Source: Meghimatium bilineatum (Eukaryota; Mollusca; Gastropoda; Stylommatophora; Philomycidae). From it: a DNA stretch of 64,000 nucleotides. The translations under genes and the position numbers were made by a program. The stretch covers positions 11,460,820 to 11,524,819 of the forward strand of contig CM067302.1 of the NCBI GenBank assembly GCA_034231615.1, written 5' to 3'. Shown here one piece after another: positions 4,578-58,710 of this stretch (positions within the stretch are counted from its first letter, which is position 1; the number at the start of each line of letters is the position of its first letter). Under the pieces are notes generated by a model that made no database searches, was not told the DNA's origin, and worked only from the letters and a program-made list of their open reading frames with translations.

Positions 4578-5436
4578 TCATGACAGCACAAAAAATACTT
4601 CTTCCAGAATACGATTTTCCTCTTCATCACCAAAAAATAACTTCCCTTCTGCAGAATTCTCTGTCTCAAGACCACGAAGGGTCAACTGCACAAAATTCAA
4701 CACATCATCCTCTACAAAAATATCCGCATGTTCATCCCTAACAGGAGGCTCCATCTTTAGGGGGTTTTTAATGCAATCCCCACCGTAAGATCTGTTTAAT
4801 GTCTGAATTATTAAATCTGAAAAATCCTCATCATCTGATACGCCATTAACTCCATTAGATATTCTAGTGACACCCTTATCATTCGAACTAATTAATCTTG
4901 CATTACCCTTATCATACGAGCCAGTTAATCTCTTTTCACCCTTATCATATGAACCGATTAATCTCGCATCACCCTTACCATACGAACTAATTAATCTCGC
5001 ATCATCCTTATCGTACGTTAGTCTGGCATCACAGTTATATGAGATTGCACCACACTGGACACGTTCATCGAAGCCATCACACTTCTGTCTCATACTATCT
5101 TCGTCTTTGTTCACACAATTACCTCGTACATTATCAATGCTGGTTCTCTTAAATTCAAAAAGTTCCAATATGGAGTCACTTTCATTAAAAATCTTCCCCA
5201 GACCCAATTCGTGATGACGACCAATATTTGTGTCACCCATGATGGGCAGAGAATATTTACTTATCGGTAACTGGCCGTCAGATGTGACAGGCTCTCTGGA
5301 CTCTGGAGTAGGTGCGCCATAATGAGGCTTAGCGCCACTCACTGACCACGGTGACCCACGTTGATTATGTTGTTTTGATATGGAAGCTGAGTCAGACAGT
5401 GTCTTTATGATGTCCACAACTGATAGCGTCTCCTCT
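4578..5436 (-). CDS. KIAA1328: Hinderin exon 13 (stop codon), with an 11-aa coding repeat
   Basis: Opens EETLSVVDIIKTLSDS, matching the ETSLLDLVQSLS motif of the vertebrate C-terminal region, and ends EEENRILEEVFFVLS before TGA. The conserved C-terminal tail fixes the stop. Its middle has about five 11-residue repeats (DARLISSYGKG, DARLIGSYDKG, EKRLTGSYDKG, NARLISSNDKG), encoded near 4855-5035. Acceptor CTGAACAG. Confidence 0.88.
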
Positions 5437-11400: not shown

Positions 11401-14400
11401 GAAGATACACAGATGATACGGTACTTCTAACTACACACATAGAAGATACACAGATGATACGGTACTTCTAACTACACACATAGAAGATACACAGATGATA
11501 CGGTACTTCTAACTACACACATAGAAGATACACAGATGATACGGTACTTCTAACTACACACATAGAAGATACACAGATGATACGGTACTTCTAACTACAC
11601 ACATAGAAGATACACAGATGATACGGTACTTCTAACTACACACATAGAAGATACACAGATGATACGGTACTTCTAACTACACACATAGAAGATACACAGA
11701 TGATACGGTACTTCTAACTACACACATAGAAGATACACAGATGATACGGTACTTCTAACTACACACATAGAAGATACACAGATGATACGGTACTTCTAAC
11801 TACACACATAGAAGATACACAGATGATACGGTACTTCTAACTACACACATAGAAGATACACAGATGATACGGTACTTCTAACTACACACATAGAAGATAC
11901 ACAGATGATACGGTACTTCTAACTACACACATAGAAGGACTAGAAAGGATGATCATGAAAGCAAAGCATACAGCGAAGAATAAAACCTTAAATTAAACAT
12001 ACAGAAAACCAACATCATGACAACAGATAAAACCAAAGTAATACAAAGATTTCTTCTTCTGCGTTCGTTCTCAAACTCCTGCAGATTAGAAGGATGTAGT
12101 CCGGAGAACGGAATGCATTGTGTCATGGTTTGTAGCATTGCTGTGATATCTGCGCCTTTTGGCCTGACACATCCTACTTCAGCATGGCTTTGGGTCACTG
12201 ACCCTATATGGGATGGGACAGCCAACTCCATCCCATAACCTCCTTAGTCGCCTTTACGCCATGCATGGAAGGTAAACAGTGTTGCTATTCTTTGCTCCCC
12301 TTTCGGGCACCGTCAACACACGAGCGATACAAAGATTTATTATGGAACTGGAAAATGTCAAAAAGTTTGATTATCTCGGTGCAAATATAAACAGCTGGGG
12401 GGGGGATTTTTAAATGGAAATTAGGAGAAGATTAGTGATAGCTATAACGATATTTAAAAAAATTAAAAATATATGGAAAAACTGTTATAAAGAGACAAAA
12501 GTTATACTTTAGTTACATATCTACAAAAGTTATATATCTTTATACATTTTTTCCAGTTACAACATACAGCTGCGAGACTTGAACTATAAATAGAACAATA
12601 GCAAAGATGAATATCAGCCTTGAAACTAAAGTGTTTATAGGGTAATATTAAGAATTTCCTGGACAGAAAAGATAAGGAATAGTAAGCTTGTGAATATGCC
12701 GAATATAGAGAAAGGATGGCTAGTGAATATAATTTTACATAGGAAACTGAAATATTTCAGACATATAAAAAGACACAATGACATGGAAAGACGAATACTA
12801 GAGGGCAGAATTCCTGGAAGTAGAAGAAGAGGTAGACCTAGAAGGAGACGGAAAGATGACATCAAAGACTGTATGAAGATATCGCTGAAGGAGGCAGGCA
12901 GATTGACACAGGATAGAGTCGGGTTCAGGACATCAACTGCAAAGACAACGTTCTGGAAAGAATATGTCACATAACCAACCTACTGCTGACCCTACATCAG
13001 TTTTTGGTATAAATTAGACCCACCCACTGCTGACTACTTCATTTTTTGGTATAAATTAGACCCACCTACTGCTGACCCTACTTCATTTTTTGGTATAAAT
13101 TAAACCTACCTACTGCTGATCCTACTTCATTTTTTGGTATAAATTAAACCCACCTACTGCTGATCCTACTTCATTTTTTGGTATAAATTAAACCTACCTA
13201 CTGCTGATCCTACTTCATTTTTTGGTATAAATTAAACCCACCTACTGCTGATCCTACTTCATTTTTTGGTATAAATTAAACCCACCTACTGCTGATCCTA
13301 CTTCATTTTTTGGTATAAATTAAACCCACCTACTGCTGATCCTACTTCATTTTTTGGTATAAATTAGACCCACCTACTGCTGACAATACTTCATTTTTTG
13401 TTATAAATTAGACCCACATCCTGCTGACCACCAACTGCATGAGGAATAGCCTAGTTGGTTACAATCCAGCTGTAAATGGGTATGTGACACATGGATTGGG
13501 TAAAGTAAGCACAATGGAGAAGGGAACTGGCCACCACACCTAATAGTTGTGGTGACTTAGTACATGAAATGTTATCTTCATTCCTGATGTCAGGTTGCTG
13601 CCATGGGATCTACCTTTACTGATGACTTCAGTTCATTTTTGGTAACAATTAAATCCATCTACTGCTTACCACTTCAGTTAGTCTATGGTAACAATTAGAC
13701 CCACCCACTTCAGTTAGTCTATGGTAACAATTAGACCCACCCACTTCAGTTAGTCTATGGTAACAATTAAATCCATCTACTGCTTACCACTTCAGTTAGT
13801 CTATGGTAACAATTAAACCCACCCACTTCAGTTTGTCTATGGTAACAATTAGACCCACCCACTTCAGTTAGTCTATGGTAACAATCAGACCCACCCACTT
13901 CAGTTAGTCTATGGTAACAATTAGACCCACCCACTTCAGTTAGTCTATGGTAACAATTAGACCCACCCACTTCAGTTAGTCTATGGTAACAATTAGACAC
14001 ACTCACTTCAGTTAGTCTATGGTAACAATTAGACCCACCCACTTCAGTTAGTCTATGGTAACAATTAGACCCACCCACTTCAGTTAGTCTATGGTAACAA
14101 TTAGACCCACCCACTTCAGTTAGTCTATGGTAACAATTAGACCCACCCACTTCAGTTAGTCTATGGTAACAATTAGACCCACCCACTTCAGTTAGTCTAT
14201 GGTAACAATTAGACCCACCCACTTCAGTTAGTCTATGGTAACAATTAGACCCACCCACTTCAGTTAGTCTATGGTAACAATTAGACCCACCCACTTCAGT
14301 TAGTCTATGTAAACAATCAGATCCACCGACTTCAGTTAGTCTATTGCAACTATTTGACCCACCCACTTCAGTTAGTCTATGGTAACAATTAGACCCACCC

Positions 14401-17400
14401 ACTTCAGTCTATGGTAACAATTAGACCCACCCACTTCAGTCTATGGTAACAATTAGACCCACCCACTTCAGTTAGTCTATGGTAACAATTAGACCCACCC
14501 ACTTCAGTTAGTCTATTGCAACTATTTGACCCACCCACTTCAATTAGTCTATGGTAACAATTAGACCCACCCACTTCAGTTAGTCTATGGTAACAATTAG
14601 ACCCACCCACTTCAGTTAGTCTATGGTAACAATTAGACCCACCCACTTCAGTTAGTCTATGGTAACAATTAGACCCACCCACTTCAGTTAGTCTATGGTA
14701 ACAATTAGACCCACCCACTTCAGTTAGTCTATGGAAACAATCAGATCCACCGACTTCAGTTAGTCTATTGCAACTATTTGACCCACCCACTTCAATTAGT
14801 TTATGGTAACAATTAGAACCACCCACTTCAGTTAGTCTATGGTAGCAATTAGACCCACCCACTTCAGTTAGTCTATGGTAACAATTTGAGCCACCCCACT
14901 TCATTTAGTCTATGGCAACAATTTGATGCACCCACTTCAATTGGTCTATGGTAACAATTTGAGCCACCCACTTCATTTAGTCTATGGCAACAATTTGATG
15001 CACCCACTTCAATTGGTCTATGGTAACAATTAGAACAACCCACTTCAGTTAGACTATGGTACAATTATTCCCACTTACGGCTGACCCCATCTGGAATAAT
15101 ATTCCAAGAGAAATAATCAAGTAATCAAGATCTCGCCATCTCAGTATCAATGTTTCCACAGTAACATTTCCTCAACTCTTCCTATACTGTATTGACATTT
15201 TATCAAATAGGCCTATGCCTGTAGGCCTACCTGTTTTCTTGGAGTCACTCCTGCTTGCTTGTCAACCTGTAAACATAGAATTAAAGTTGCAATGGACAAA
15301 CATACGACATTTATTGAGGTGTTAGCTAGTCTGTTTAGTTTAATTTGGTGCCTGGCTGACAGCTGATTGGTTGGTTAGTTAACCAGACCTAGCAATCAGT
15401 TATAGCTAGCCAGTTAGTCAGCCAGTATAATTAGCAGCTAGCAGCAAGCCTGGCAGACAGTCAGTCACAGTTTGTTATCCAATCAGTCAGTTATAGTAAG
15501 CCAGCCAACATGGCAGTTAGTCAATCATTGGTCAGTTACAGTAAGTTAACCATTCAGTTAGTTATAGACAGTCTAGCCATTCTGGCAAACAGTCAGTTAG
15601 TTATAGTTATTCAGCCAATTAAAAACAACTAAAAACAATAGAAATAATGACACTATCACAAAAGCATTAGGCTGCAGTCATTTAACAGCAGAGACACCCT
15701 AGGCAACAATGTTATACGTATACGCAAGTAGTCATAGAGACACGCATTAAAAAAATATGGAGAATGAGAACGAAATATAATAACTATAACTGAAAATCTG
15801 AATGACAACACAACAAAGCCCCCACCACTAAATCTAAATAAATGAATGATCGGTATTAAGACCAAAGACCCTTAAGCCATTTGGTCTTAATACCAATCAT
15901 ACATTTAGATTTTGGGGTGGGGATCTTTCTTGTGTTGTCGTATGTGTTGTTTTCAGCATTATTTTTTGTACATAAGCACTATTGCATGTCTCAATCAGTC
16001 CTTCCCTACTCAACCAACCCTTTCTTCCTCAACCAGTCCTTGCTTAGATCGACAAAATCCTTCCTACTCAACCAACCATAGTCTCTTTGATCCATCCATT
16101 CCCCAGCTAGACTTGCACTCACCATCATCTGTAACTGTTGTTCTGCTAATACCAGCTTGAGTTTAGCCTGCTCCTCCAACAAGAGAGCCCTTTGTTTCAC
16201 CAGTTCAGACTTTCTTTCTTCTGCAGACATCTGAACAATCCAATCATTAAAAATTTGTGAATGTAAACTTAATCTTTCAATAAATTATGCACATACTTTT
16301 AACATTTCTATAAATTGATTTATTAGTGGTCAAACACTAGACATTCCTACAAATTGACGTGTCAGTGGTAAACAACTACAGAGGGGGGCAATGGGTAATG
16401 TATTGCTCTCTGTGGACCTAGGGTTAGCAGCAAATAACCAAGATCACAAAGGTACCTACTCGTGGTGCACCCTGGAAACAGAAATACTGCTGCTCATGTT
16501 GATTCTGGCTAAGACTTTTGAGGATCGCGTCTGTGAATGTGGAGGCAGTATATTAAATGAGAATTTACTGCAAAAAAGACAGGCAAGATCCGACAACTCT
16601 GTGCCAATGCATGCAGCAGCACTGTCAACACACAGAGACGCTAGTCAGGCCAGTGGAAGCACTGGAGGGGCGGCCAATGCAAATGTTACGAAGTGGGCAG
16701 ATTTCATGAGATATTTGGAGTTGGTGCATCAGTCTCAGAAAAAGATGACATATTGAGTACAATGAAAGTGCAGCACATCGCAAGAGGGCAGCGCAATATG
16801 CAAATAGAATTGTAAAATGTTTCAAGGAAATTGGAACTAAAGTACTGTTAGCTCAAGACAAGCTTCTAGTTACCGGTGCTCCCAGCCCAGGCCAAACTCT
16901 ATTGTCAAGTTTTTCCTATACCAGAATCATGCTCATGGAGATAAAAGGTTCAGTACCCAATGGGCACAGACACAACAGTCCAAGGAGACTAGTTCTGTTC
17001 AGCTCAAGAACAAACTTCTAGTCCCTGGTGATGGTGCTACTAAATTTGTGTATAGACTCAGACTTGGATGAGGAGTTCACAATATTGGTGAATGATACCT
17101 CGGCTAAGAGAGCGAACGAGCCCAGGCCCAACTCTTCTGTCGAGTTCTTCCTAAACCAGAACTAGGGTCATGGATCAGAAAAGGTTCAGTACCCGATGGG
17201 CACAGGCACAATATGCCCAATTACACAAGACAAGTTTACTGGCTGCGGAAAACCTTGTGCAATACAGACAAACTGTCACGGCGTAGAGTAAATACACATT
17301 CGACGACTAACGACAGATAGGAAGGCTATCACAGACTAGGGTAGCCCACCCGAAATGTAAGGCATGCTAAAATTATACGATCTGGGTCTACAAGACGCAT

Positions 17401-20400
17401 AATGGCAGCACAGCACACTCACGCTCCCAACGGAGCGTTATTAAGGAGCAAAAGCAAAAAAAATTAATTAAAATAGAGTGAACATTCATACAACTTGACC
17501 TGTCAGTGATTAGACAACTAGAGCAATCATTCATACAACTTGACCTGTCAGTGATCATACAACTAGAACAACCATTCATACAACTTGAACAACCATTCAT
17601 ACAACTTGACCTGTCAGTGATTAGACAACTAGAGTAATCATTCAGACAACTTGACCTGTCAGTGATCATACAACTAGAACAACCATTCATACAACTAGAG
17701 GTGAACATTCATACAACTAGAACAACCATTCATACAACTAGAACAAACATTCATACAACTAGAACAACCATTCATACAACTAGAGGTGAACATTCATACA
17801 ACTTGACCTGTCAGTGATCATACACCTAGAACAACCATTCATACAACTAGAGGTGAACATTCATACAACTTGACCTGTCAGTGATTAGACAACTAGAGTA
17901 ATCATTCATACAACTTGACCTGTCAGTGATCATACAACTAGAACAACCATTCATACAACTAGAGGTGAACATTCATACAACTAGAACAACCATTCATACA
18001 ACTAGAACAAACATTCATACAACTAGAACAACCATTCATACAACTAGAACAACCATTCATACAACTAGAACAACCATTCATACAACTAGAACAACCATTC
18101 ATACAACTAGAACAATCATTCATACAACTAGTCAGTAGAATTATAAAGAACTATCAATATTAGAACAGACCTGTTTGTATGTGTTCAAGAATTCATCACT
18201 AGTCTTGAATGGTGATTTCTCAGTTCCATACTGTTGTGTATCACTTTCTGTCAGATGTTCATCATTTTTTCTCTTTCTCTGACTCTCACTCACAAGTAAT
18301 TTTTGTTTCCCACTGTTGTTTCTGGCTATTATATTGTCATGATTGTGTCCTATAGAGTCGCCAACAATGTCCCCACTTACAACACACATGTCCCGCTGTC
18401 TTGTGTTTTGTTTATTGAAGTCCACAAGAACTGTTGAGTTGACTGACAAAAAATCACCAAATTCTGAACTTTTCTGTGTGCTGGACATAATGGGTGCATG
18501 TAAAGGACCATAACTGGGGGGTGGTGGTTTTCTCTTCTTTACTTTAGAATCAGATTGTATCAAATTTTCTCCATTTTTTTGCCCCTGTTTAATGGTTTGT
18601 TCTGTGTGACCTCGAGGTCGATTAAGTCTATGCTGATGTCGCACAGCCTCTTCCTGACTCTGCATAAATCGAGCAATAATCTCATTTTTCTCAACAGGCA
18701 AACACATTTGACCTCGGTTAGCGAAGTTCAATTCCTGCTGCTCTGTTTCTGTGTCTGATTGATCAGTTTTAGTTACAGCTGGACAAATATGAGAACCTTT
18801 CCCAGCATGAGTTCCTACAATATGAGAACCTTTCCCAGCTTGAGACTGATGAGTTGCTACAGACTTCGGGATGGGAATGCTAGCAGTTTGACCAATCTTC
18901 CTTGTCAATTGTTCTTGGTTATCACTAAGAGGATGCACCTTCTCAGAGACATGCAGACTAGGCACTATTTCCTCTGTAGCTTGCTTCAAATTTACAGGAC
19001 TCACAGGCTTACTGGGTGATGTATAATGCATACTTTCTGTTACAGATGTTAGTAATTGTTTCTGATATGCCAGCTCCTTGTCAATAATAGCAATAAAGGG
19101 TTTCTGAAGGTGGGATTTCACATTGTCTAGTTCAGTGGGTAGGGACAGAGATACAAGTACCTCAGTGGAACAATTATCTACGTCATTTTTATTCTGTTCA
19201 TTCTTGCGTAGATTTTTTGAGCTTTTCTCTCCATCATTCTCATGCGAGTCTGAAATAGAAAAATTGGCATCTTCATTAACTAAATCACATACATTTTTGT
19301 AGCATTGTTAGATTATTGATACACACACAAATCTTACATGTCAGAACTTTCAGAAACAGATATGGCATTTATATATATATAAAATAGCGTATCCTATTCA
19401 GGACATAGCCATCAACCCAGCATTTTTTGGCTGTAGTGATTTTCTAGGCAATATAAATACATTCATTTGTTTGCCATTGTTTTATGAATGGTCCGTATGC
19501 TCAAATACCTGTGGCAGAGATTGAACTCGATACCGTGACTGTCACAGACGCACTATGCCACAGAGCCGGACTATATATATATATATATACACATATTTTA
19601 TATGACTGAGATGTCATGTATCCATATTATATCATTGTAATGTTATATGTCCATATCAGATCCTTGTCATGTCATATATCCCTATCATATTGTTGTAATA
19701 TCATGTATCCATATCAGATTGCTATGTCATATATCCATATGAGATTAATGTAATGTCATGTATCCAAGTCAGATTGTTTATTTGTTTATATAAACCTAGC
19801 AAAGGATTACTAGTGTTGAAGGTTATAGTAATCAACAGCCATGAATAAAACTAAACTACAAGTAAGCATAATGAATGTATCAGGTTCAAGTCTTGTGTGA
19901 CACCGTCTGATGTTGTTCATAATTTATTGAAAGTTCTTACTTGTTATTCATAGTCATTATGTATGTGACACTAGCTTGTTTTCTTATTATGGCAATCAAT
20001 AAGATGTAATACTTCTGTAAAACTGTATCTTCTTCTTCTGCGTTCGTTCTCAAACTCCTGCAGATTAGCAGGATGTAGTCCGGAGAACGGAATGCGCTGT
20101 GTCATGGTTTACAGCATTGCTGCGATATCTGCGCCTTTCGACCTGACACATCCGACTTCAGCATGACTTTGGGTCACTGACCCTATATGGGATGGGAACA
20201 CAAACCTGTATCTGCAGCAGTATCAATGTCTGACACAGGGACATGCTTCTTATCCAAGCAGGCAATATTTCCCTGACATTTTGAAGCTGTTAAGATAGCA
20301 TTACAGTGACTGCCCTTCTTACGGGCAGCTTTCATCTTCTGACTTGCCTGAAAAATATATGACAAAAACTGTTGATTATCAGATTCCTTAGATTATAGCA

Positions 20401-23400
20401 CAATGTAGCTAGCACTATTGCTAGCATAGATTATAACTAGCACATCACTTCTGAAATGGGACATGATATGACTTTTTGTTAGGATGTTCCTTTATAAATA
20501 GGAGTTTCCACTTTGCTTTTTGAGAGTTGTTTATTATCTTTTTGAGAGTAAATCTACAACAATCTTACATTATCTTATAGACATCTACAACAACCTTACA
20601 TTATCTTGTAGATGTATATAACAATCTTACATTATCTTGTAGATGTATACAACAATCTTACATTATCTTGTAGATGTATATAACAATCTTACATTATCTT
20701 GTAGATGTATATAACAACCTTACATTATCTTGTAGATGTATATAACAATCTTACATTATCTTGTAGATGTATATAACAATCTTACATTATCTTGTAGATG
20801 TATATAACAATCTTACATTATCTTGTAGATGTATATAACAACCTTACATTATCTTGTAGATGTATATAACAATCTTACATTATCTTGTAGATGTATATAA
20901 CAACCTTACATTATCTTGTAGATGTATACAACAACCTTACATTATCTTGTAGATGATTCTGCTGGAGGTGTTTCTGCAGCTGATGTTGCTCCTGCTGAAG
21001 TTTCAGAATATAAGCCTGATACTCCAGCAGTTTCTTTTGGTCTGTTCATGAAATGAGTAAAACATAGTGAAATTAATAGAGAAAGATCATACAATGTGAA
21101 ACAAAGATCACAAGATATGAAATGAAGATTACAAGATATGAAATGAAGATCACAAGATGTGGAATAAATACTATAATATGTGAAATTAAGATCACAATAT
21201 GTGAGACAAAAGTCATAAGAAACAAAGATTGTAAAATGTGAAATGAAGATTGTAAAATGTGAAATGAAGATTGTAAAATGTGCAGTGAAGATTTTAAAAT
21301 GTGGAATGAAAACTGTAAGATATGAAATGAAAACTGTAAGGTGTGGAATGAAAATTATAAAATGTGGAATGAAGATCACAAGATATTAGATAAATCACCA
21401 GTTTTAGGAAAAGTTCTCTCATCTTTCCATGAAATATTCAATTTTCAGCATGGTCATTTCAGAACAGCCAGTAAAGAGAAACATAATCGATATACGAAAT
21501 GAATGAGAAATCAGCATTGAACTGGAACTGTTAGCAGCTACACTTTGATGGATTTATTGAGATGGGAATCGGAACACTTATGGACATGTCCGGTGTGCGC
21601 TAATGATAATCTGTAGCCATTTCAACATAAAATAAATATTTAACAATTCATTAAAGCTTTCTAATAATATTATTCATTGGAAAATAATTTGGGCATTCAT
21701 TCAATGCAATATTTGTGAGGGGGGCCCATTATCCACTTATTACCACCAAACCGACATTGGTACTGCCAAACAATCAGTACAACATCCTTGTACAACATCT
21801 CTGACCTTCATATTCCAGTAAGATTTGCTCCTGCTGGCTGACAAGTGAGAGGATCTGTTCTTCATAATGTTTCCTCTCCTCTTCCAAGTTCTTCTCTGCG
21901 TTCTCCTTTTCTTCTCCTAGCCTGTATCAGAATAAAATTCATGGTTTATGACTTTATATCAGAATAAAATGCATGGTTTATGACTTTATATAAAAATATC
22001 CGCCAAAGACGGATGTGTTGGGCCATTGGCGCAAATAAAACGGCAACACAACACATTTCCATTCTCTGAACGACATCCAACTGGAAATCTTGTAGGACCA
22101 TTGTCCTGTTACAAGAGAAATCCAGTGGGAATTTGAGAATGAACACTAAAGAAGAAGAAGATATAAAAATAAAATGCATGGTTTATGACTTCACAAACCA
22201 GACAATTCCACAGGTGCTCAGATTCAGTAAATCACTCAGGGTATAAAGGTTGATAGTTCTGGTTCTATGATGGTTCACTGCTCTTTTTGAAATTTTTGTC
22301 AGGAGTTTTCTACGGGCAACACTCAAATTGCCAGTTTGCGCTCCCAATTTGCACATTCTCAATATAGACTGATACTTATTTATCTAAAAATCCTCTCGTG
22401 TGTTGCCCGGGCCCGAAAGGGGAGCAAAGAATAGCAACACTCTTTACCTTCCACGCATGTCATAAAAGGCGACTAAGAAGGTTATGGGATGGAGTTGGCT
22501 GTCCCATCCCATATAGGGTCAGTGACCCAAAGCCATGCTGATGTCGGGTGTGTCAGGCTGAAAGGCGCAGATATCGCAGCAATGCTGTAAACCATGATAC
22601 AACGCATTCCGTTCTCCGGACTACATCCTGCTGATCTGCAGGAGTATGAGAACGAACGCAGAAGAAGAAGAAGAATATAAAAATCCTCTGATCATGTGAA
22701 TTTACGAAGAGCAAAGAGTATGTCTGCTAGGCCCATAGGCTGACTATCTGTTATGGTGTTGAGACTAGCTAATTTGTCTACCCGTTCATTTTCCTCCACA
22801 TCCGCATGTCTGGGTACAAAGATAAGCCTGAGATTTCGTAGTGATGAACGACATTTTACCTCTCTCTAATGACTTCACCCATCCCCTATGAACATCACCT
22901 GTTTTGACTTTGTGAATCATATTCATCGAGTCACTTAGTATTCACACATGGGAATAGGTTTGCGATTCCAGCCAGTTAAGTGCCTGCGTTATGGCAAATA
23001 CTTCCATTGTTAGACTGCTTGTTTTTGTGGTAAAGGCTCCACTGGCTTCATGTACTGTTCTTCCTTGTGATCTGGCAGTAAAAGCCCATGTGCTTTGGTG
23101 GTGACGGATGGCCGACCCGTCCGTGTAAATTACAACATCTATGTCATCGGCATGGTCACAGATGAGTGCCTTGACCTCAATATCCATGCTCATGGGGGCT
23201 GTGTTCCCTGCAATCTCTATTGAGTGTAATGACGGTCCTGATTGCCTCTTGAAAGACTATAAGAATATGTATGCATTCCTAACCAAGAGTTATGCCTTCT
23301 GGGGTGCAAATTTGTTCAACAGTATCCTCAGCACGACCCATCCACGATTTGCCTCTTTTTAGCCTCTTTTAAAATTCTGATATTTCCTGATACACTTATG

Positions 23401-26400
23401 ATAACCATAATTCTCCGTCGATTTTTGTTTTTAAAACTATATTTGTATATATTACATTAAAATTTGAATATATTTAGAGGTACTATTACCAGCTCTGGTG
23501 ACAGATGTGCGATGATAAAATTGTAAAACAAACAATTCTGGCAGAACGCAATAAAAACTCCATAGCTAGTAAGTTAAAAACATTATTTCCATAGGTGACT
23601 TACACATATACTGGCAGGGGAAATACAATTCAATTATAATTGTAAACTCCTGCTTGCGTGTAACAATTCAAATTTACATTTACAAAATTTAATTTAATTG
23701 CGCTGCTTTCAGATTGGCCTAAACACTACAGGATAGACTTTACAGCTTCTTCTTCTTCTTCTTCTGCGTTCGTTCTCAAACTCCTGCAGATTAGCAGGAT
23801 GTAGTCCGGAGAACAGAATGCATTGTGCCATGGTTTACAGCATTGCTGCGATATCTGTGCCTTTTGGCCTGACACATCAGACTTCAGCATGGCATAACCT
23901 CTCTATCCCATAACCTCCTTAGTCGCATTTTACAACATGCATGGAAGGTAAGCAGTGTTGCTATTTTGACTTTACAGCTTATTTTAAACTATTAGAAAGT
24001 AACATGGATAAGATATTTGTTTTCTGTCACCTTGCCAGTTCCTTAATCAGATTAGCCACACGTTTCTTGTCCTCCACACAGAGGTTCCGCAGGGTAACTC
24101 CATCATCTTTGGGGTTAGAAATACTAGACACGTCTGTGTCCAGAAGACTATGTGACATCTGGAAATACACCCAAGAGTGTTCATTAATAATAACTGTGTA
24201 TGTGACTTCTGTTAAAATGTGCACAACAAATAAAATATGGCTGCAGATATCATAAAATATGTTGCAATGCAAATTAATGTATGACTTCTTCTTTGTTCAT
24301 TCTCAAACTCCTGCAGATTAGAAGAATGTGGCCATACATCGGATTGCGTTGTGCCATAGTTTACAGCTTAGCTGCAAATATCTGTACCTTGCTGCCTGAC
24401 ACATCCAACTTCAGTATGGCTTCTGGGTCACTTTAACATGACTGGGCTCCAGTGCAGACCTCTCAACAGAAGGTAAACATGCCTTCATTCGTGAAAATAT
24501 AAAAAATTTAACTACTGTAAAAATGTGCGTGCTGTTTCCAGAGTGGCGCCGCTATGACCCTGAAGGGCTATTGGCTTGATTATGATGATGATGAAAGAAA
24601 CAGATTGAATAAACATGTCAACCAAAATGCCTTTGTCCATTTACAGTAACAGAATTTCTGTTACAACATGACTGTAACAGAAGCAGGAAGACTAGCTCAA
24701 GATCAACAGAAGTTTCGAAAGGTTGTGATGACAGATAGATCCAGGAATAGGGTAACAAAGTTTTGCTAATAACTAGAGACACACATAATAACACACACAA
24801 ATCGGCATTTCGACCAAAAAGCCTTTATCAAAACAACAATTGAAACCAAATTAAAACATACAACAGAAAATGAACAGTAATAACATCAACGTGATATGTG
24901 TAGTATAGATTGACAGGAAGAAGTGAAAACATGTGATGACTGATACGTCCTGTTCAGGATATGCTACCTGATGATGATGACAAAGACATAATGCACAAAA
25001 TGAATAAAACACAGCGCATATGTCAGGTAGATATGTCAGCGCACATGTCAGAACCAAATACATGGTTGTTAGATATCATTTTGCATTATCTTGATTCTTT
25101 ATTAGAAACTAGCTTCACACCACGTGGGGCATTCCCATAAGTGCTCCGCTCTCCATTCCAGCAGCATTCTCAGTGTATGTAGACTCAGAGTCCTGGTCAG
25201 GTGTTCACTGTGTGATCTTCAGGGCATTCCAAAAGATTTATTTTTCCTACCCTCCCCTCCTTCAAACAGATGTATTTTTCCTACCCTCCGCTCTAGATGC
25301 TCCCATTTCTAACATTCTCTGTATGTGCACATTCTCAGCCTTGTTGACATCATCTTCATCTTGAAATGAATTTATTACTGCCTTGATCAAGTCTGCTTTA
25401 TCTCTTCTCAGCAATTTCCCATCTATCACAGCATTTTGTGTTATTTATTATTTTATAAAACATCCTCCAAACCAACATACCGGGTATGTTAAAGCAAATC
25501 TCAACATGCTCAGTAAATAAGAACAAAGAACACATTTTAGACTAAATACCAACCACTGTGACTTAAATCTCCAAAGTGACCAATGTCCATGCCAAAAGAG
25601 TCCCTAGACTCAAGAACACATTTGCAGACGTGTCCATTCTGTGATGACTTGAGAACTTAAATATGGCCCCAAGAGACATATCTGAAGGTGAAGCTGTGGG
25701 GCAACAGTGAGGACCTCCTACTGACGACTGACTTCATGGAGACAAACCTCCTTCCTGTATAGTCTTCTGATCAAAAGAAACTGAGTGCAGGAGAAGAAGA
25801 AGACCTAGGTAGATGCCTATAGTAACCAGATAGGCAAAACATCACGTCAATTGTGTCACAGTCAAGATGACAACACTCCAAGAATACTCAAATCTTCAGC
25901 ACCTCCACAACATAATCTGAGATTATTATACACAGAGCTCGGAAAGACTTTCTAGGAAACAGAGAGATACTGCAACAGACTGCATGAACTTTAAACCAGA
26001 TGTCACTGTGGACATGAACACACTCCCTCAGACCAGTCCTCTATCAGCCTCATAGGCAGATCCACCCTTCTGTATGTCACCATGGAAACACAAATTTGCA
26101 TGATGTGAGAAAGTAGAGATATTGCGTTGCCTGCATCAACACACAAATTAAAAGTCTATAGCAAGGGGAAAACAGAAAAACAAAGTTAAAACTATGGAGA
26201 AACTAAATCTTTGCAGTGGTAACATATGGTTGTGAGATGTGGGCAATGACATCTGACATCTGTGGGCAATGGGAAAGAAACTATTGGCATTCGAAGTGAG
26301 ATGTTATAGAAAGGTCCTAAGAATATCATGGACAGAAAGATGAACTAACGTAGATGTCTGCAATGAAGCAAAGAAGACTGGCTTCTCAAAACTAGCAAAA

Positions 26401-38494: not shown

Positions 38495-38571
38495 ATGGGG
38501 AGGTACAGATCTGATAGCAGTGGCGAAGAATATTCCAGAAAATCAAAGAAGAAGAAGAAAAAGCGATCAAG
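38495..38571 (+). CDS. RSRC1: RSRC1 exon 1 (start codon)
   Basis: The ATG in TTAATGG opens MGRYRSDSSGEEYSRKSKKK followed by a Lys run and RS. Donor CAAG|GTAGCA, phase 2. No in-frame ATG was noted just upstream. Confidence 0.85.
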
Positions 38572-44500: not shown

Positions 44501-47500
44501 CGTAGAAGAGATTCTAGGTCTAATTCAAGAGATCGGAGTTATACTAGAGATAGAACTGTTTCTAGCAGGTGAGTTAGAAGTCAAGTAGGTGAGATAGAAC
44601 TGTTTCTAGCAGGTGAGTTAGAACTCGAGTAGGTGAGATAGAACTGTTTCTAGCAGGTGAGTTAGAACTCGAGTAGGTGAGATAGAACTCTAGCAGATTT
44701 TTTTCATGCGTTCGCTCATTAATAATCAACACGAAGATTGTAGCGATTTGTGACAGGAGCGAATCTGAGTTGTGTGCCAAATATGCTCAGCACATTTGAT
44801 TATGGTGTACCGTGACATTTTGGATGGGCTGTGACAGCCATCCTTTTTGTCACCAGGCGGCAAATGTGTATTGATTCTACGGCGAGATAGTTTGTCATTC
44901 ACATCTATCTTGTATGGATCACTAAGTCATCTTCAGAAGACCTTCACTTTTTTAAGAACGGCATTGTGCTGCCAAAGCAACATTTGGATATCAACAACAT
45001 ATCTCATTGAAACACAAATATCTGTCAAACAGCACTCCCAAATATTTTAAACTTGTTTTTTTGGGTTAAAGTCAGAACTATAATTCTACTAAAGTTAAAC
45101 AAGGAAAACCATGCAGCAAAAGGGATTTGAACCAGGTCCTTTCAAATGGCACCCAACCACCTCGCAACTTGAGTCAGCACGTTGTGGTGTGGTCTTCTTC
45201 TTGTTCTTCAGCGTTCATTCTCAAACTCCCACTGGATTTCTCTTGTAGTAGGACAATGGTCCTACAAGATTTCCAGTTGAATGTAGTCCAGAGAATGGAA
45301 ATGCGTTGTGTTGCCGTTTTATTTGCGCCAATGGCCCAACACATCCGTCTTCGGCGGGTGGTGTGGTCAAAGATGGAATACATGTTGAGTATATTTGGTA
45401 TATTTATTTATTGTTTTTTATTTCCAGATATTTTTAGGCGGTTGAATGAACTGGATGGACGAATCCATTCTGGTAGAAATATCTTATGCTGTATCTCCAT
45501 CTTGTGTCATTTTTCTGCCTAAGTAGGTAAACTGTCTGAATTGTCAACTGTCTGAATTGTTTCTACATTGAGAGGGTTTTTTTTTAAAAATTTTGCTTTC
45601 CCTGGGAATTGCAAACAACTTGCTCTTATTACCTATGTGCAGTGAGGCAGTTTTGCTGAGCTTTTTTTCGTACCCATGAGACCAGCTTTTCGGCTTCGTA
45701 CAATGCCTAGTGAAGAAACCTTCTTGAGAGATGTTAAAGTTGGTTAAATTCATGATCTTATTCTTGGAAGTGTTAACTTGGAGGCCAGTTTGTTCTAAAA
45801 GATGACACAGACCACCTGATTGCTACATAAAATAAAATACTTTAGAGAAAACAGGATGAAATACTCTAGTGGTACTACAGTGGATGCATCAACACACAGA
45901 GTCCTCTAGCGATTTCGATCTTCAATGATGCGGACGAGCAAGGAAAGATCTTTTGCTGTCTAGTCCTTGATATTATCTGTCCATGCCTTTATTTGTCATC
46001 CTCTGCTTCTTCCACCTTCGACCGTTCTCTGCAGTATTTTTTTTTGTCACACTAATATTCAACCTATATTTAATATTTAATATATTGAGGAGCGCGGTAG
46101 CCTAGTGGATAGTGAGCTTGCTTGCTATCATCTGGTTACAGCGTGCCAGGTTCGAAACCACGTCCGGACATTAAAAAAAAAATAATGTCCGGGTTGTGAT
46201 TTCTCACTTGACACGACCACTCCTCCAGTCGACTCAGCTGTAAATGAGTACCTGACGCATGAGTTAGGGAAGGTAAAAAAACAGCAAGGAAGGGAACTGG
46301 CCACCCCACCTAATAGTTGCTGCGGCTTAGTACATGAAGAGTTATCTTCATCCCCGATGGCAGATGCCATGGGACCTACCTTTTTAATATTCAACCACTA
46401 GATTAGAATTAGTATCACTTTTGTATACGACTCCCGTCAAAGATAGATGTGTCTGGCCATTGGCGCAAATAAAATGGTGACACAACGCATTTCCATTCTC
46501 TGGATTATATCCTGCTGGAAATCTAGTAGGACCATAGTCCTGCTATAAGGGAGATCCAGAGGGAGATTGAGAATGAAGAAGAAGAAGAAGTATATGACCA
46601 CATCTATGATACAGAATGCTGACCAGATCTTTGATACAGAATGGCAATGTGTTTGTAGAGATCAGAAAAAGTCCTGGCATTCTCCATTTATGAAATTACT
46701 GCATCTCAAGACCTTCTTCTTTCTTGTTCACACCGCAACAGGGTTTTCAGAGCCCTGATTTGACTCCTCAGCTGTCAGTGGACTCATAAGCATCAAGAAG
46801 TCCTTGGTTTAAATCCTGCTCACGTTGTCTTGTTTATACAACGTGATTATTTTTTCTGAGATCCCTGGGAATTATCACTTGAAGCTACTGAGTTGCGTGC
46901 TGTTAGTGGTACTCTCAGAAGGCGGCATGCCGCTTCGTTGAGAGGGACTGAGTACATATGTGGTAACATGAGTAGAATGAAGTCAATCCTCTACACTTTT
47001 TTAAATCCTTTTCCAACCTGACTTGTTCAATACCATTCTCATCTTCACTTGTGAAGAAGGAACGTTAACATCATTATGAAATCATACTTGATTATGAGTT
47101 TGATGATAAGTTTTATGAGTTTGATGATAAGTTTTATGAGTTTGATGATAAGTTTTATGAGTTTGATGATAAGTTTTATGAGTTTGATGATAAGTTTTAT
47201 GAGTTTGATGATAAGTTTTATGTCTGTTAGATCATCTGCTGATCCTCGCAAGGTCACAAGTCAGATGTCAGGAAGCCCTAGATTAAAGGGGTAGGTATTT
47301 TCTGTAACTATTGTCAATGTTTGTAAATAAGTTATGTTACAAGTTATTAATGTTTGTAAACAAGTATTGTAACAAGTTACAGATGTTTGTAAACAAGTAC
47401 TGTAACACGTCAATCTTTGTAAACAAGTACTGTAACATGTCAATCTTTGTAAACAAGTACTGTAACACGTCAATGTTTGTAAACAAGTACTGTAACACGT

Positions 47501-56500: not shown

Positions 56501-58451
56501 GCGCTTGTATGAGTAAACATTAACTGTACCTAACAAGAGTTTCATTCATTTTCCTTTTGCGCTGAAGTTAGCGCAGAGGTCAGATCTCTCCAATTCTGTC
56601 TGTTCAAAGCTATTCTGTGCAGTTCTTGGATATTGATTGTTTTACTTTCTCTAAGTATTGTTCTTCTGAGTGTTTCTTTTGGTCTACCCCTGGCTCTTTT
56701 GCCTGTAGGTATCCATGCAAGAGATTGGTGATGTATATCCTGTTGATGTCTGCGCTTAGGACATGCCCGATGTAGGACCAACAGCGTTTCCTGATAACAT
56801 CTGTGATGAAATTTTGATGTGTGTCTTCTCTGATTTTATAATTTGATCTGAATTCACTCCAGTGGGTGTTAGTTATCCTATGAAGACATTTGTTCTCGAA
56901 ACTCAGTAATTTCTTTATTGGAATGAACTGACTTCTGTTACACAAATCGGTCTGGACTTTGCGATGATTAATCCAACGATTGACGGAATGACCCAGACTT
57001 GATTAGAGAAACACCCTCCATCAACGGACGTCACTACCGGAAGTCATGTAGAGTACATCAACATAACTGACATTTGTATGAGTAAACATTAACTGTACCC
57101 AACAAGAGTACATCAACATAACTGACATTTGTATGAGTAAACATTAACTGTACCCAGCAAGAGTACATCAACATAACTGACATTTGTATGAGTAAACATT
57201 AACTGTACCCAACAAGAGTACATCAACATAACTGACACTTGTATGAGTAAACATTAACTGTACCCAACAAGAGTACATCAACATAACTGACATTTGTATG
57301 AGTAAACATTAACTGTACCCAACAAGAGTACATCAACATAACTGACATTTGTATGAGTAAACATTAACTGTACCCAACAAGAGTACATCAACATAACTGA
57401 CATTTGTATGAGTAAACATTAACTGTACCCAACAAGAGTACATCAACATAACTGACATTTGTATGAGTAAACATTAACTGTACCCAACAAGAGTACTCAG
57501 TATATTATAATAATTATCTTGATATTCTCATTATTATGTAGGAAGAGCCCGCTGATTCTGGTGTAAATCACGAAGATGCTATATTTGGGTCACTATCCAT
57601 CACTGGATTCACGATTACTCCTGATCCTGACATCAAGCCAATACAACTGGATTCAGATTCTATCATGCACCCAAGTGTTAGTGTTAACTTAATCATAGTT
57701 GTCCAAGTGTTAGTGTTAACTTTAATAATAATCGTGCAAGTGTTAGTGTTAACTTTAATCATAGTTGTCCAAGTGCCAAGTGTTACTCTTATATTGTTAT
57801 TTTTCTACTGTGTCCCAGTGTAACTTTTATATTGTTATTGTCCTGTGTCCAAGTGCCAAGTGTTACTCTTATATTGTTATTTTTCTACTGTGTCCAAGTG
57901 TAACTTTTATATTGTTATTGTCCTGTGTCCAAGTGCCAAGTGTTACTCTTATATTGTTATTTTTCTACTGTGTCCCAGTGTAACTTTTATATTGTTATTG
58001 TTGTCCTGTGTCCAAGTGTAACTCTTATATTGTTATTGTTGTTCTCCTGTGTCTAAGTATGAAAGTGTTGTTTCGTATATGTGCACAAAGTGTTATCATG
58101 CTGAAGCATATTCTATTACTATATGTCCTAAAAGTAACATTATATTATGTGTAGTATAACTGTTGTTTCGTGTCCTAAAAGTAACATTATATAGTTTGGT
58201 TGTTTCATGTCCTAAAAGTAACATTATATTGTGTGTAGTGTGGTTGCTATTACGTGTCCTAAAAGTAACATTATATAGTTTGGTTGTTTCATGTCCTAAT
58301 ATTAACATTATATTGTGTGTAGTGTAGCTGTTGTTAACACTAGTTTTATTATCCTCCACAGCTTTACTGTGATCCACAAGAGAAGATGGACAGATGGATA
58401 GACCGGCTTACACAATTACGAAGACGCAAATTAGAGGGAGAGGCTATTTAG
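38495..58451 (+). CDS. RSRC1: RSRC1 (SRrp53) orthologue, 9 coding exons
   Basis: Join of 38495-38571, 42599-42736, 44335-44568, 47231-47290, 47870-47909, 50581-50632, 53141-53280, 57542-57676, 58362-58451. The total is 966 nt (321 codons plus stop), and all phases agree. Seen in order: MGRYRSDSSGEEYSRKSKKK, like the vertebrate MGRRSSDTEEESRSKRKKK start; an Arg/Ser-rich domain (about residues 25-150); TPSEQVDERMRQALKAA, matching the LPPAEQAKARLQ helix; IDSDSFVASSFKSSR, matching IESDSFVQQTFRSSK; a C-terminal HPSLYCDPQEKMDRWIDRL block ending in basic residues. The human protein is 334 residues. Known of the family: a nuclear SR-related protein acting in constitutive and alternative splicing, including 3' splice-site choice. 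One intron has a GC donor. Assignment is by remembered similarity. Confidence 0.88.
38670..39463. mobile_element. TIR element (MITE), copy 1, RSRC1 intron 1
   Basis: Ends CTACGGTCATGGTGG... and ...GCGCGGTGACCGTAG, inside TA...TA. GC-rich ends with TGACGTCATTGCACGCG and ACAGTGTTCTATTTTTAGCG. Includes a poly-G run (38883-38892) and a 106-codon ORF of no known product. Homologous to 39989-40365. Confidence 0.75.
39989..40365. mobile_element. TIR element (MITE), copy 2, RSRC1 intron 1
   Basis: Ends CTATGGTCACAGTGAAATTT and GCGCAGTGACCATAG. Shares TTTGACCTAGTTTTGAGGTA on the left, and TGATGTCACTGCACGCG and AACAGTGTGCTATTTATAGC on the right, with copy 1 but is 417 bp shorter. 39464-39988 is AT-rich with nothing recognised. 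Confidence 0.78.
40640..40900 (+). mobile_element. LINE 3' end with (GAAT)n tail
   Basis: TIQELHRIALNS and TSAPKENE before AATGAATGAATGAATAG. The same end as 56545-57030 in opposite orientation. Confidence 0.65.
40901..41455 (-). mobile_element. LINE RT domain remnant
   Basis: The minus strand: EAQAGFRSGRGTTDHIFNKR, NIDLHACFIDYTKAFDCIQH. RT motif with the catalytic first Asp (IDYTKAFD). Confidence 0.8.
41456..41935 (-). mobile_element. LINE RT C-terminus and 3' end
   Basis: The minus strand: LEDRIDAFEMWVNRRIGRTS, LLREIKIRQIKYFGHIKRP, then the single-copy version of the segment amplified at 7183-8027. Confidence 0.75.
41940..42180 (+). mobile_element. LINE 3' end
   Basis: GKRKRGRPRETPSRTTNKEG and IQELHTVASDRSNWQALVF, ending ATATAGATAGAT. 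Confidence 0.65.
42268..42520 (+). mobile_element. Diverged family-A repeat next to RSRC1 exon 2
   Basis: An older copy: CATGTTACAAGAGGTGACTA core and CTGCAGGAGTTTAGAACGAG end. It lies about 80 bases upstream of the exon 2 acceptor. Confidence 0.6.
42599..42736 (+). CDS. RSRC1: RSRC1 exon 2, RS domain; GC donor
   Basis: Acceptor ATTTCCAG. Encodes SNSSSSQYSHISDSRSRKTR through SRSRSADKKYSRSHRRS. The donor reads TCAAG|GCAAGT, the usual strong form of a GC-AG intron. Phase 2 to phase 2 keeps the Arg codon at each border. Confidence 0.85.
43040..43735 (-). mobile_element. LINE 3' remnants, RSRC1 intron 2
   Basis: The minus strand 43148-43354 reads FQWKCLRKAAVVTTLVRGYK and IYRTSADKVVWSPSENEP. 43620-43725 is a plus-strand 3' end (GTGGAGAAACATGATCGCCT, TTGA tail). 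Between them a 29-bp repeat (CCCAGTTCCAACTGATATAA) occurs three times. Confidence 0.5.
43865..44250 (-). mobile_element. LINE 3' end, third homologous copy
   Basis: Matches 41456-41800 base for base over long stretches. At 44050 it reads CTCAAGTAAGGTCTTAACAA, the unoccupied version of the piggyBac-like insertion site at 51540. Confidence 0.75.
44335..44568 (+). CDS. RSRC1: RSRC1 exon 3, main RS domain
   Basis: Acceptor CAATGAAG; 77 codons of dense RS/RD dipeptides (SASRDRYGSKK, RRSRSPPSKHGRSRSPSSRR, WSRSLSRDRRRDSRSNSRDR). Donor AGCAG|GTGAGT. The last 20 exon bases with the donor recur twice more downstream. Another frame that stays open here is a shadow. Confidence 0.88.
44549..44700 (+). 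repeat. 44-bp repeat carrying the RSRC1 exon 3 donor
   Basis: Unit GATAGAACTGTTTCTAGCAG|GTGAGTTAGAACTCGAGTAG + GTGA, three full copies plus a partial. Donors fall at 44569 (real), 44613 and 44657; a second AG|GTGAGA lies in each unit. Confidence 0.92.
45103..45195 (-). mobile_element. tRNA-like SINE head, family Q
   Basis: On the minus strand TGACTCAAGTTGCGAGGTGG and CCTGGTTCAAATCCC resemble A and B boxes. Related copies at 59875-59950 and 60225-60285. Confidence 0.5.
45196..45358 (-). mobile_element. Family-B short repeat with TSD
   Basis: GTGGTGTGGTC lies on both sides. The best preserved family-B copy, including the inverted pair GTAGGACAATGGTCCTAC. Confidence 0.8.
45860..46065 (-). mobile_element. 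LINE 3' scrap
   Basis: The complement matches 63000-63160 (ACAGAGTCCTCTAGCGATTT, GATATTATCTGTCCATGCCT). Confidence 0.6.
46088..46390 (+). mobile_element. V-type tRNA-derived SINE, near full length
   Basis: Head GCGCGGTAGCCTAGTGGATA (A box) and GCCAGGTTCGAAACCACGTC (B box). The body has CAGCTGTAAATGAGTACCTG and GGGAACTGGCCACCCCACCT and ends GCCATGGGACCTACCTTTTT. Confidence 0.8.
46432..46592 (+). mobile_element. Family-B short repeat
   Basis: From ACTCCCGTCAAAGATAGATG to GAGAATGAAGAAGAAGAAGA. TSD unclear. Confidence 0.65.
46745..46960 (+). mobile_element. tRNA-like SINE with decayed body
   Basis: CTCCTCAGCTGTCAGTGGAC and CTTGGTTTAAATCCTGC resemble A and B boxes. The body includes AGATCCCTGGGAATTATC, echoed near 54720. 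Confidence 0.45.
47095..47222. repeat. 21-bp minisatellite upstream of RSRC1 exon 4
   Basis: Six units of AGTTTGATGATAAGTTTTAT + G, ending nine bases before the exon 4 acceptor. Confidence 0.9.
47231..47290 (+). CDS. RSRC1: RSRC1 exon 4
   Basis: Acceptor TCTGTTAG, donor AAGGG|GTAGGT, phase 2 on both sides. Encodes SSADPRKVTSQMSGSPRLK. A 21-bp tandem array ends ten bases before the acceptor. Confidence 0.75.
47320..47610. repeat. 30-bp minisatellite downstream of RSRC1 exon 4
   Basis: About nine units of TGTAAACAAGTACTGTAACA + CGTCAATGTT, starting 30 bases past the donor. Confidence 0.88.
47870..47909 (+). CDS. RSRC1: RSRC1 exon 5, 40 nt
   Basis: Acceptor TGTTACAG, donor GAGATG|GTAAGT. Encodes QSGTELTSNFYEM and restores phase 0 before the TPSEQ segment, matching the position of the GNIKAGLEHL stretch in the vertebrate protein. 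Confidence 0.75.
47950..48600 (-). mobile_element. Mariner/Tc1 transposase remnant
   Basis: The minus strand contains LGQPLYSPDLAPSDFLVLLN and ADGIITNATDERGV in broken frames, with a further segment YPPTSKKRKL. RSRC1 intron 5. Confidence 0.6.
48731..48942. repeat. 212-bp near-perfect palindrome, RSRC1 intron 5
   Basis: Left arm starts AGTAATGCAAAATTAGATAA, right arm ends TTATCTAATTTTGCATTACT. The arms of about 100 bp differ by only a few small gaps, around a loop near TATACGTC. Nothing coding. Confidence 0.88.
49066..49468. repeat. ~105-bp tandem repeat, four copies
   Basis: Each unit has GACAGCTGAGAGAGTTGTCA, CAGTTTCCAGCAGCTTTATG and CTAGTTAGTTAGTCGTCGGA. It continues into an element shared with 63230-63400. 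Confidence 0.85.
49465..49700 (-). mobile_element. LINE C-terminal zinc-finger end, copy 1
   Basis: Matches 63235-63400 (GTCGGATCATCACTACAAACTGG, GCTCCGATCTCTCC, CGCCATTACACTTCTGCTGA). Confidence 0.55.
49860..50400 (+). mobile_element. LINE C-terminal remnants
   Basis: MDRWATYSKGRVLYADMSQP, INRLHRKDQTTIFRLRTTHV (post-RNase H), then LVTTRKIKGRRDREVPRWV of a different LINE. Confidence 0.65.
50581..50632 (+). CDS. RSRC1: RSRC1 exon 6, conserved helix start
   Basis: Acceptor TGGTTTCAG with a good pyrimidine tract; donor GCAGCCG|GTAGGA. Encodes TPSEQVDERMRQALKAA, corresponding to the conserved helix after the RS domain. Confidence 0.85.
50822..51057 (+). mobile_element. Family-A repeat with TSD
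   Basis: TACACCAGCT at 50813-50822 and 51058-51067. Internally shorter (the CCCATATAGGG block is lost). RSRC1 intron 6. Confidence 0.75.
51360..51540 (-). mobile_element. LINE 3' end interrupted by the piggyBac-like element
   Basis: A fourth copy of the 41456/43865 family; it resumes after the insertion at 52454 (TATGGTGTCATACTTTTAAC). Confidence 0.65.
51545..52449. mobile_element. piggyBac-like non-autonomous element, 905 bp
   Basis: TTAA at 51541-51544 and 52450-52453. Terminal inverted repeat CCTTTAGAGCCC / GGGGCCTAAAGG. No long ORF; the right half is CpG-containing (CGTATTCCTAGCTTCGTG, GAAGTTACGTACTCGGG). TTAA target and CCYTT ends are hallmarks of piggyBac. Confidence 0.8.
52697..53118. 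repeat. 36-bp minisatellite upstream of RSRC1 exon 7
   Basis: Twelve units of TTTAGTTTCTGATGAAATGT + AGACATGAAATTATCT, ending about 22 bases before the acceptor. Confidence 0.92.
53141..53280 (+). CDS. RSRC1: RSRC1 exon 7, conserved SDSFV core
   Basis: Acceptor TGTCTTAG, donor ATAAAG|GTTGGT. Encodes AAGEKLKGRKIEEPTDS and VAAIDSDSFVASSFKSSRAT. The I-(D/E)-SDSFV signature is the clearest RSRC1 hallmark. A 36-bp tandem array ends about 20 bases before the acceptor. Confidence 0.9.
53420..53570. repeat. 40-bp minisatellite, RSRC1 intron 7
   Basis: Four units of TTGTTTCAAGTTCTGTGGGT + TGTTTGGACTCATTCTTATG. Confidence 0.88.
53600..54045. repeat. 45-bp minisatellite, RSRC1 intron 7
   Basis: About eight near-identical units of TTTTGACTCATGTTCCCTGT + GTTGTTTTGACATATGTTTA + CTGTG. 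They translate as a 15-residue repeat on plus and open on both minus frames; spurious coding. Confidence 0.92.
54297..54352 (-). mobile_element. Family-A 3' scrap
   Basis: Only the tail region (GAAGAAGAC...CTCCAGGAGTTTGAGAAT on minus). Confidence 0.55.
54465..54600. repeat. Dispersed repeat, copy 2 of 2
   Basis: Reverse complement of 485-632. The sequence after it (54600-54755) looks like a decayed SINE body. Confidence 0.5.
54780..55260 (-). mobile_element. LINE C-terminal remnant without the mariner
   Basis: The complement reads AAAAAGTATTACTATACAGG then CATGATGGATACAAAGCCAG, collinear with 1640-2150 but lacking the 435-bp insertion. Confidence 0.75.
55680..55810 (+). mobile_element. Old family-A copy
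   Basis: GGGGAAGTAAAGAATGGTAA and GACAACTAAGGAGGTTAAG match the core with many changes. Confidence 0.5.
56125..56335 (+). mobile_element. tRNA-derived SINE, family T, opposite strand
   Basis: GATGCGGTACAGAGCACGTC and TTCCAGGTTCAAATTCCGC, then GCAGCCAAAAATTCTGCGTT and CATCCTGAATAGGATATGCT. Confidence 0.72.
56545..57030 (-). mobile_element. LINE C-terminus, 3'-complete
   Basis: The minus strand: LLSFENKCLHRITNTHWSEF, RGRPKETLRRTILRESKTIN, IQELHRIALNRQNWRDLTSA, with the (GAAT)n-type tail at 56545. RSRC1 intron 7. Confidence 0.78.
57045..57496. repeat. 55-bp minisatellite upstream of RSRC1 exon 8
   Basis: Eight units of GTACATCAACATAACTGACA + TTTGTATGAGTAAACATTAA + CTGTACCCAACAAGA, ending about 45 bases before the acceptor. 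Its first-unit sequence also appears at 56505-56540. Confidence 0.92.
57542..57676 (+). CDS. RSRC1: RSRC1 exon 8
   Basis: Acceptor TTATGTAG, donor CCAAGT|GTTAGT, phase 0. Encodes EEPADSGVNHEDAIFGS through DSDSIMHPS; the HPS continues into LYCDP of exon 9 as HPNLF does in vertebrates. The exon end and donor are repeated in tandem. Confidence 0.85.
57668..57775 (+). repeat. ~33-bp repeat carrying the RSRC1 exon 8 donor
   Basis: CCAAGT|GTTAGTGTTAAC followed by TTTAATCATAGTTGT. Donors at 57677 (real), 57709 and 57742. Confidence 0.88.
57765..58050. repeat. Minisatellite, RSRC1 intron 8
   Basis: Units of CCAAGTGTTACTCTTATATT + GTTATTTTTCTACTGTGTCC with an alternating CAGTGTAACTTTTATATTG half; about three double units. 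Confidence 0.82.
58110..58335. repeat. Minisatellite upstream of RSRC1 exon 9
   Basis: TGTCCTAAAAGTAACATTAT + ATTGTGTGTAGTGTGGTTG-type units, four to five copies alternating long and short. Confidence 0.8.
58362..58451 (+). CDS. RSRC1: RSRC1 exon 9 (stop codon)
   Basis: Acceptor CCTCCACAG; encodes LYCDPQEKMDRWIDRLTQLR through LEGEAI then TAG. It corresponds to the EEKWFKRLIALRQERL C-terminus. The last coding bases and the stop are the first unit of a 31-bp tandem array. Confidence 0.88.
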   Translation, partial: LYCDPQEKMDRWIDRLTQLRRRKLEGEAI

Positions 58452-58710
58452 TGAATATAAATTATAACGGAGAGGCTACTTAGTAAATATAAATTAGAGC
58501 GACAGGCTATTTAGTGAATATAAATTAGAGGGACAGGCTATTTAGTGAATATAAATTAGAGCGACAGGCTATTTAGTGAATATAAATTAGAGCGACAGGC
58601 TATTTAGTAAATATAAATTAGAGCGACAGGCTATTTAGTGAATATAAATTAGAGGGACAGGCTATTTAGTGGCTATAAATTAGAGGGAGAAGCTATTTAG
58701 TGGCTATAAA
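58429..58710 (+). repeat. 31-bp repeat containing the RSRC1 stop codon
   Basis: Unit TTAGAGGGAGAGGCTATTTA + GTGAATATAAA, about nine copies. The first is the coding end (LEGEAI stop) of exon 9; the rest are 3' UTR. Confidence 0.9.

Follow-up and report, generated by a model that had tools for sequence, protein, structure and literature searches.

The window analysed here, a stretch of 64,000 nucleotides, contains two genes. The first, on the minus strand, comprises ten exons running from 24158 down to 4578, whose phases match and which join into one 3189-nt ORF. When three exons are joined, the resulting 109 residues match the Pfam family KIAA1328 (PF15369, hinderin) with E 2.7e-10, and a 632-residue exon join matches it with E 4.9e-8; exons searched singly fail to hit hinderin in Pfam, and the match of the joined ones bears out the identification as hinderin made by the sequence-only reading. 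The ten-exon model is based on sequence and not on RNA. The second gene, on the plus strand (38495–58451), is RSRC1-like, a name given after a tblastn search with a human probe sequence. The serine-arginine-rich exons yield the best E of 1.2e-9, uncorrected for compositional bias; the other exons match weakly (E 0.011, 0.10, 0.31, and 2.8), and their order, strand, and phase all fit. Exons R5–R8 have no match in Pfam, and at least one exon is missing from the model between R3 and R5. Exon R2 has an apparent GC donor at 42736 (AAG/GCAAGT; here and below, the slash marks the exon end). Coding GC3 is 0.381 and 0.345 for the two genes, with CpG observed/expected of 0.45; lancelet genes are richer in GC, so that these values would argue against such an animal. 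An Rfam search gave 0 matches, and a viral_contigs scan for hinderin relatives gave 15 pattern matches, 0 of them confirmed.

Exon H5 of hinderin (our numbering; minus strand, 20941..21041) follows an acceptor ending in GAACAG and ends in phase 0 at the donor AAT/GTAAGG, its border being set by reading frame and phase from sequence alone; it is part of the exon join that matches PF15369. The next exon, H6 (minus strand, 20206..20347), starts in phase 0 and ends in phase 1. The intron between them (minus strand, 20348..20940; 593 nt) consists mostly of a 31-bp minisatellite (minus strand, 20558..20955), which opens with the 15 terminal bases of the exon; TRF reports 20558–20955, period 31, 12.8 copies, 95% matches, and score 712. 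Read on the minus strand, it carries 13 AAT/GTAAG donor cores from 20940 to 20568, all 12 spacings being exactly 31 bp; the G of the first GT lies at 20940, and the following cores run from 20909 to 20568. Beyond these 13 cores, the intron contains no further GTAAG or GTGAG. On the other side of the exon, a degenerate 21-bp minisatellite (minus strand, 21081..21386) stops 39 bp before the H5 acceptor. We rejected the acceptor as a degenerate copy of this upstream array: the score of 18 was equalled or exceeded by 69 of 200 shuffles and by 11 of 32 other junctions.

Each unit of the 31-bp array is composed of 15 exon bases and 16 intron bases, and thus spans the exon–intron border of the model. 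The consensus of the unit is GTAAGATTGTTATATACATCTACAAGATAAT, and its exon part, CATCTACAAGATAAT, represents the last 15 bases of H5, unchanged in units 1–11. Units 1–11 differ from the consensus at 0–2 sites each, unit 12 at 6, and unit 13, at the array end, at 12; within the 15 exon-end bases, three positions are altered in unit 12, and the array breaks off in unit 13. These data agree with two claims of the sequence-only reading, namely, that the minisatellite was seeded on an exon junction, the 13 cores having been found in exact 31-bp register, and that the first unit is the real exon end, as H5 ends and H6 starts in phase 0 and all ten exons of the model share one ORF. The 16 exon bases just 5' of the copied 15 mismatch the unit at 13 of 16 positions. 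A perfect match of 15 exon bases adjoining mismatched ones could also arise if an older intronic minisatellite had supplied the donor and the exon had grown five codons into it. We consider this order of events unlikely, since the diverged units form the distal edge of the array while the exon-side unit is intact, and since the end of exon R7, which bears a similar array (see below), presumably agrees with the human protein. Seeding likely proceeded from the exon to the array.

Near-identical repeat units are hard to assemble, and an assembly artefact might affect the copy number. One array of comparable type was aberrantly assembled according to PMC3087553; however, the units here vary at +6 (G or A) and at other sites, and the register is exact, so the copy number may be off but the structure hardly is. 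An artefact is extremely improbable.

In the reading-frame model, the full ORF (1062 codons and a stop) is obtained from donor 1 only. With donors 2–13, VRLLYTSTR would be the last residues of the protein, which would end at codon 125 of the model, and the stop precedes any frame effect; what disables all 12 distal donors is an early in-frame TAA that they share. The frame itself is kept by donors 4, 7, 10, and 13, and lost by the other eight distal donors. Hence, the earlier expectation that a distal donor would shift the frame holds for 8 of 12 donors but fails for these four.

In the predicted RNA fold, calculated at three settings, the probability that positions +1 to +5 are unpaired is 0.05–0.15 for donor 1 and 0.01–0.17 for donors 2–11. 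Donor 12 is predicted to be open at all three settings (0.83–0.90), and donor 13 at the shortest one (0.88, 0.28, and 0.10 across the three). The fold has a z-score of -1.75, with 6 of 100 shuffles folding at least as well. Shielding of the distal donors by RNA structure is unsupported: donor 1 is predicted to be mostly paired and donor 12 far more open, and therefore structure fails to explain a preference for donor 1. Twelve extra donors of the same core that all lead to one stop, with donor 12 predicted to be far more accessible than donor 1, might instead act as a rheostat of poison donors, where distal splicing and decay of some transcripts would let the array length tune the hinderin message. 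We regard such a role as quite improbable, since the four other array-bearing coding borders show no common design and since, by analogy, the amphioxus arrays described below would argue against it, regular splicing being reported as undisturbed there.

The sequence-only reading took the H5 array for a singular case, which did not hold: such arrays had already been described, and three more coding borders are copied in the window. In total, the copied coding borders are three donors and one stop codon in two genes. The second donor array (plus strand, 44547..44690; 44-bp units) repeats the last 22 bases of exon R3 (44335–44568) with CAG/GTGAGT. The third (plus strand, 57671..57775; 33-bp units) repeats the terminal 6 bases of exon R7 (57542–57676) with AGT/GTTAGT, that is, CCAAGT/GTTAGT, and a derived array extends to 58058. 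The array at the stop codon (plus strand, 58428..58710; 31-bp units, 9.1 copies) is seeded on the final 24 bases of R8 coding sequence and the stop (TAG ending at 58451), and continues into the 3' flank.

We compared 15 border–array pairs, each with 200 shuffles and 32 other junctions. Six pairs beat all shuffles and all junctions: the H5, R3, R7, and H11 donors, the R8 stop, and the H4 acceptor; the other nine show no clear match. Only four copied coding borders are counted, because the matching part for H4 and H11 is essentially the array itself; in these four, the exon-side match alone is informative, because the bases beyond the border lie partly inside the given array. H9 and H11 were rejected as donor-straddling arrays, as, by phase, their arrays begin 14 and 8 bp into the intron. 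An array also lies 3 to 45 bp from each of ten more borders, with no demonstrable copying of coding sequence.

Tandem duplications of exon–intron borders, termed mirages, are known from amphioxus genes (PMC3087553), and the H5 array best fits this already described kind: its unit spans the border, as modelled, the copies carry splice signals, and several genes are affected, two of them in the window. Adh3 mirages have units of 10–72 bp and many copies with splice signals; splicing seems regular, judging by Adh3 data and globin RT-PCR (PMC3087553); regular splicing is likewise stated for the TnC mirage, and PGBD5 and TnC are added as mirage genes (PMC3902484). The features shared with these amphioxus mirages (Adh3, globin BflGb6/BflGb9, TnC, and PGBD5) are repeats across 5' and 3' borders, overlapping unit lengths, and copies of splice signals. 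The globin account also states that array edges escape homogenisation, and the H5 array likewise has a diverged distal edge. Unlike the amphioxus mirages, the window has 13 donor cores in exact register and a copied stop codon, as seen in the sequence of one haplotype alone. The mirage hosts reported are cephalochordates, which is the known range and no defining feature; no mirages so named outside amphioxus were found among the matches listed in narrow literature searches, and their absence is thus not established. Were the animal something other than a lancelet, mirages would extend beyond cephalochordates, and the clustering of arrays at coding borders (see below) would matter more.

Several other systems invite comparison. 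In the human IFI6 (6-16) minisatellite (Turri et al., 1995), units also supply donors behind an exon; two downstream units are reportedly used, giving isoforms, while at H5 an early stop follows from each downstream donor, 12 of 12 distal donors reaching the same one in the modelled frame, so that coding isoforms of the IFI6 type would not result. Mirages have been proposed as a source of new introns (PMC3087553), and intron gain by tandem genomic duplication shares the duplicated splice signals; here, in contrast, the copies sit in an existing intron, and no new intron is evident. A Caenorhabditis elegans minisatellite has been linked to alternative splicing (PMC4039745), and human tandem repeats to altered gene structure (PMC2812944).

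The explanation we prefer, with a probability of roughly 0.8, is that the H5 array is a tolerated mirage and that splicing occurs at the first donor. A short tandem duplication would have chanced to span the exon end and the donor, and then have been expanded and homogenised as an ordinary intronic minisatellite; since the exon remains intact upstream together with its own donor, the array would be tolerated. The first donor would be used, its choice probably resulting from exon definition through the exon body, whereas a message spliced at a distal donor would stop nine codons later and probably be lost to nonsense-mediated decay. Since the first copy alone should give a working message, the array is probably tolerated clutter, not a switch. 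Support for this explanation comes from the exact 31-bp register, in which the unit includes the exon end, from the single donor that keeps the ORF, and from the like arrays at one stop codon and two further donors; the near-identical inner units and the diverged distal edge would be consistent with it by analogy to edge exclusion in the globin mirage. Competition between donors may nevertheless occur, because all 13 share the core, and 13 near-identical donors, one of them productive in the model, constitute a natural experiment on spliceosome choice among equal sites.

Against this explanation stand the weakness of the H5 donor, the predicted openness of donor 12 beside the mostly paired donor 1, and the recurrence of GTRAG motifs in donor-side arrays, for which a pure bystander would have no need. 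The calculated U1 pairing of the H5 donor is -4.8 kcal/mol with G at +6 and -4.3 with A; among the 15 donors of the two genes it is the second weakest, R7 being the weakest (-4.4) and R3 the strongest (-12.2). At least four sense GTRAG motifs are present in 4 of 6 arrays within 50 bp of a donor vs. 0 of the 20 remaining arrays (p 0.001); when the two arrays that copied such a donor are set aside, the counts are 2 of 4 vs. 0 of 20 (p 0.02); 26 of 36 arrays entered the test, the ten smallest or exon-internal ones being left out. Two of the four GTRAG-rich arrays have the motifs because the donor itself was copied, and the enrichment, observed post hoc in one window, is a lead only. It could reflect U1-like repeats that recruit U1 behind a weak donor, aid exon recognition, and so are kept by selection. 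The weak H5 donor and the presence of an array also at the weakest one, R7, fit such a helper function; however, the remaining donor whose border was copied, R3, ranks as the strongest of all 15, and arrays occur at acceptors and a stop codon too. Given also the post hoc nature of the test, we hold it to be very improbable.

With (AT)n rows and an exon-internal array excluded, the two gene bodies (4.4–24.3 and 43.4–59.4 kb; 35,900 bp) contain 10,393 bp of arrays, and the rest of the window (28,100 bp) contains 64 bp. The 19-kb segment 24300–43400, which contains two divergent gene starts, has one short minisatellite (25230–25293) and two (AT)n runs, vs. about 29% array in the gene bodies.

Proximity of arrays to exon borders was assessed in several placement controls, all of which omit two (AT)n rows and treat R3–R5 as one intron despite at least one hidden exon. 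The free-placement and rotation controls used 36 arrays and 34 borders. Free placement in genes shows no clear excess, with 14 of 34 borders within 50 bp of an array vs. 10.18 expected (p 0.11), and 4 overlaps vs. 8.83. Rotation round the window gives 14 vs. 6.58 (p 0.0135), and 4 overlaps vs. 5.63. The exon-internal array 4871–5017 was omitted from the remaining controls. When arrays may not enter exon interiors, 14 of 30 borders vs. 3.52 are within 50 bp (0/3000), and overlaps number 4 vs. 1.32 (p 0.038). When each array is shuffled inside its own intron, 12 of the 30 intron ends vs. 6.06 are within 50 bp (p 0.0008), 7 vs. 4.14 within 20 bp (p 0.054), and 13 vs. 8.48 within 100 bp (p 0.0096); with interspersed repeats also removed, p is 0.0036 (50 bp), 0.087 (20 bp), and 0.033 (100 bp), the three distances having been picked after the gaps were seen. 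We take the closeness of arrays to exon borders to be real but modest, a control-dependent tendency in one window.

A broader proposal, which we find improbable, is that exon borders are favoured sites of minisatellite birth or survival here, outside cephalochordates, and that donor-side arrays keep U1-like sites to help or tune splicing. Clustering of minisatellites at coding borders of two genes makes the origin of mirages testable genome-wide.

Hinderin contains further arrays. The last exon includes the in-frame coding 33-bp minisatellite at 4871–5017 (4.5 copies, with units such as ARLIGSYDKGE). A 47-bp intronic minisatellite (7181–8028) has 18 GTRAG motifs antisense to the gene and 2 sense, and a 36-bp intronic minisatellite (13669–15074; 39 copies) leaves the minus strand open over 213 and 166 codons.
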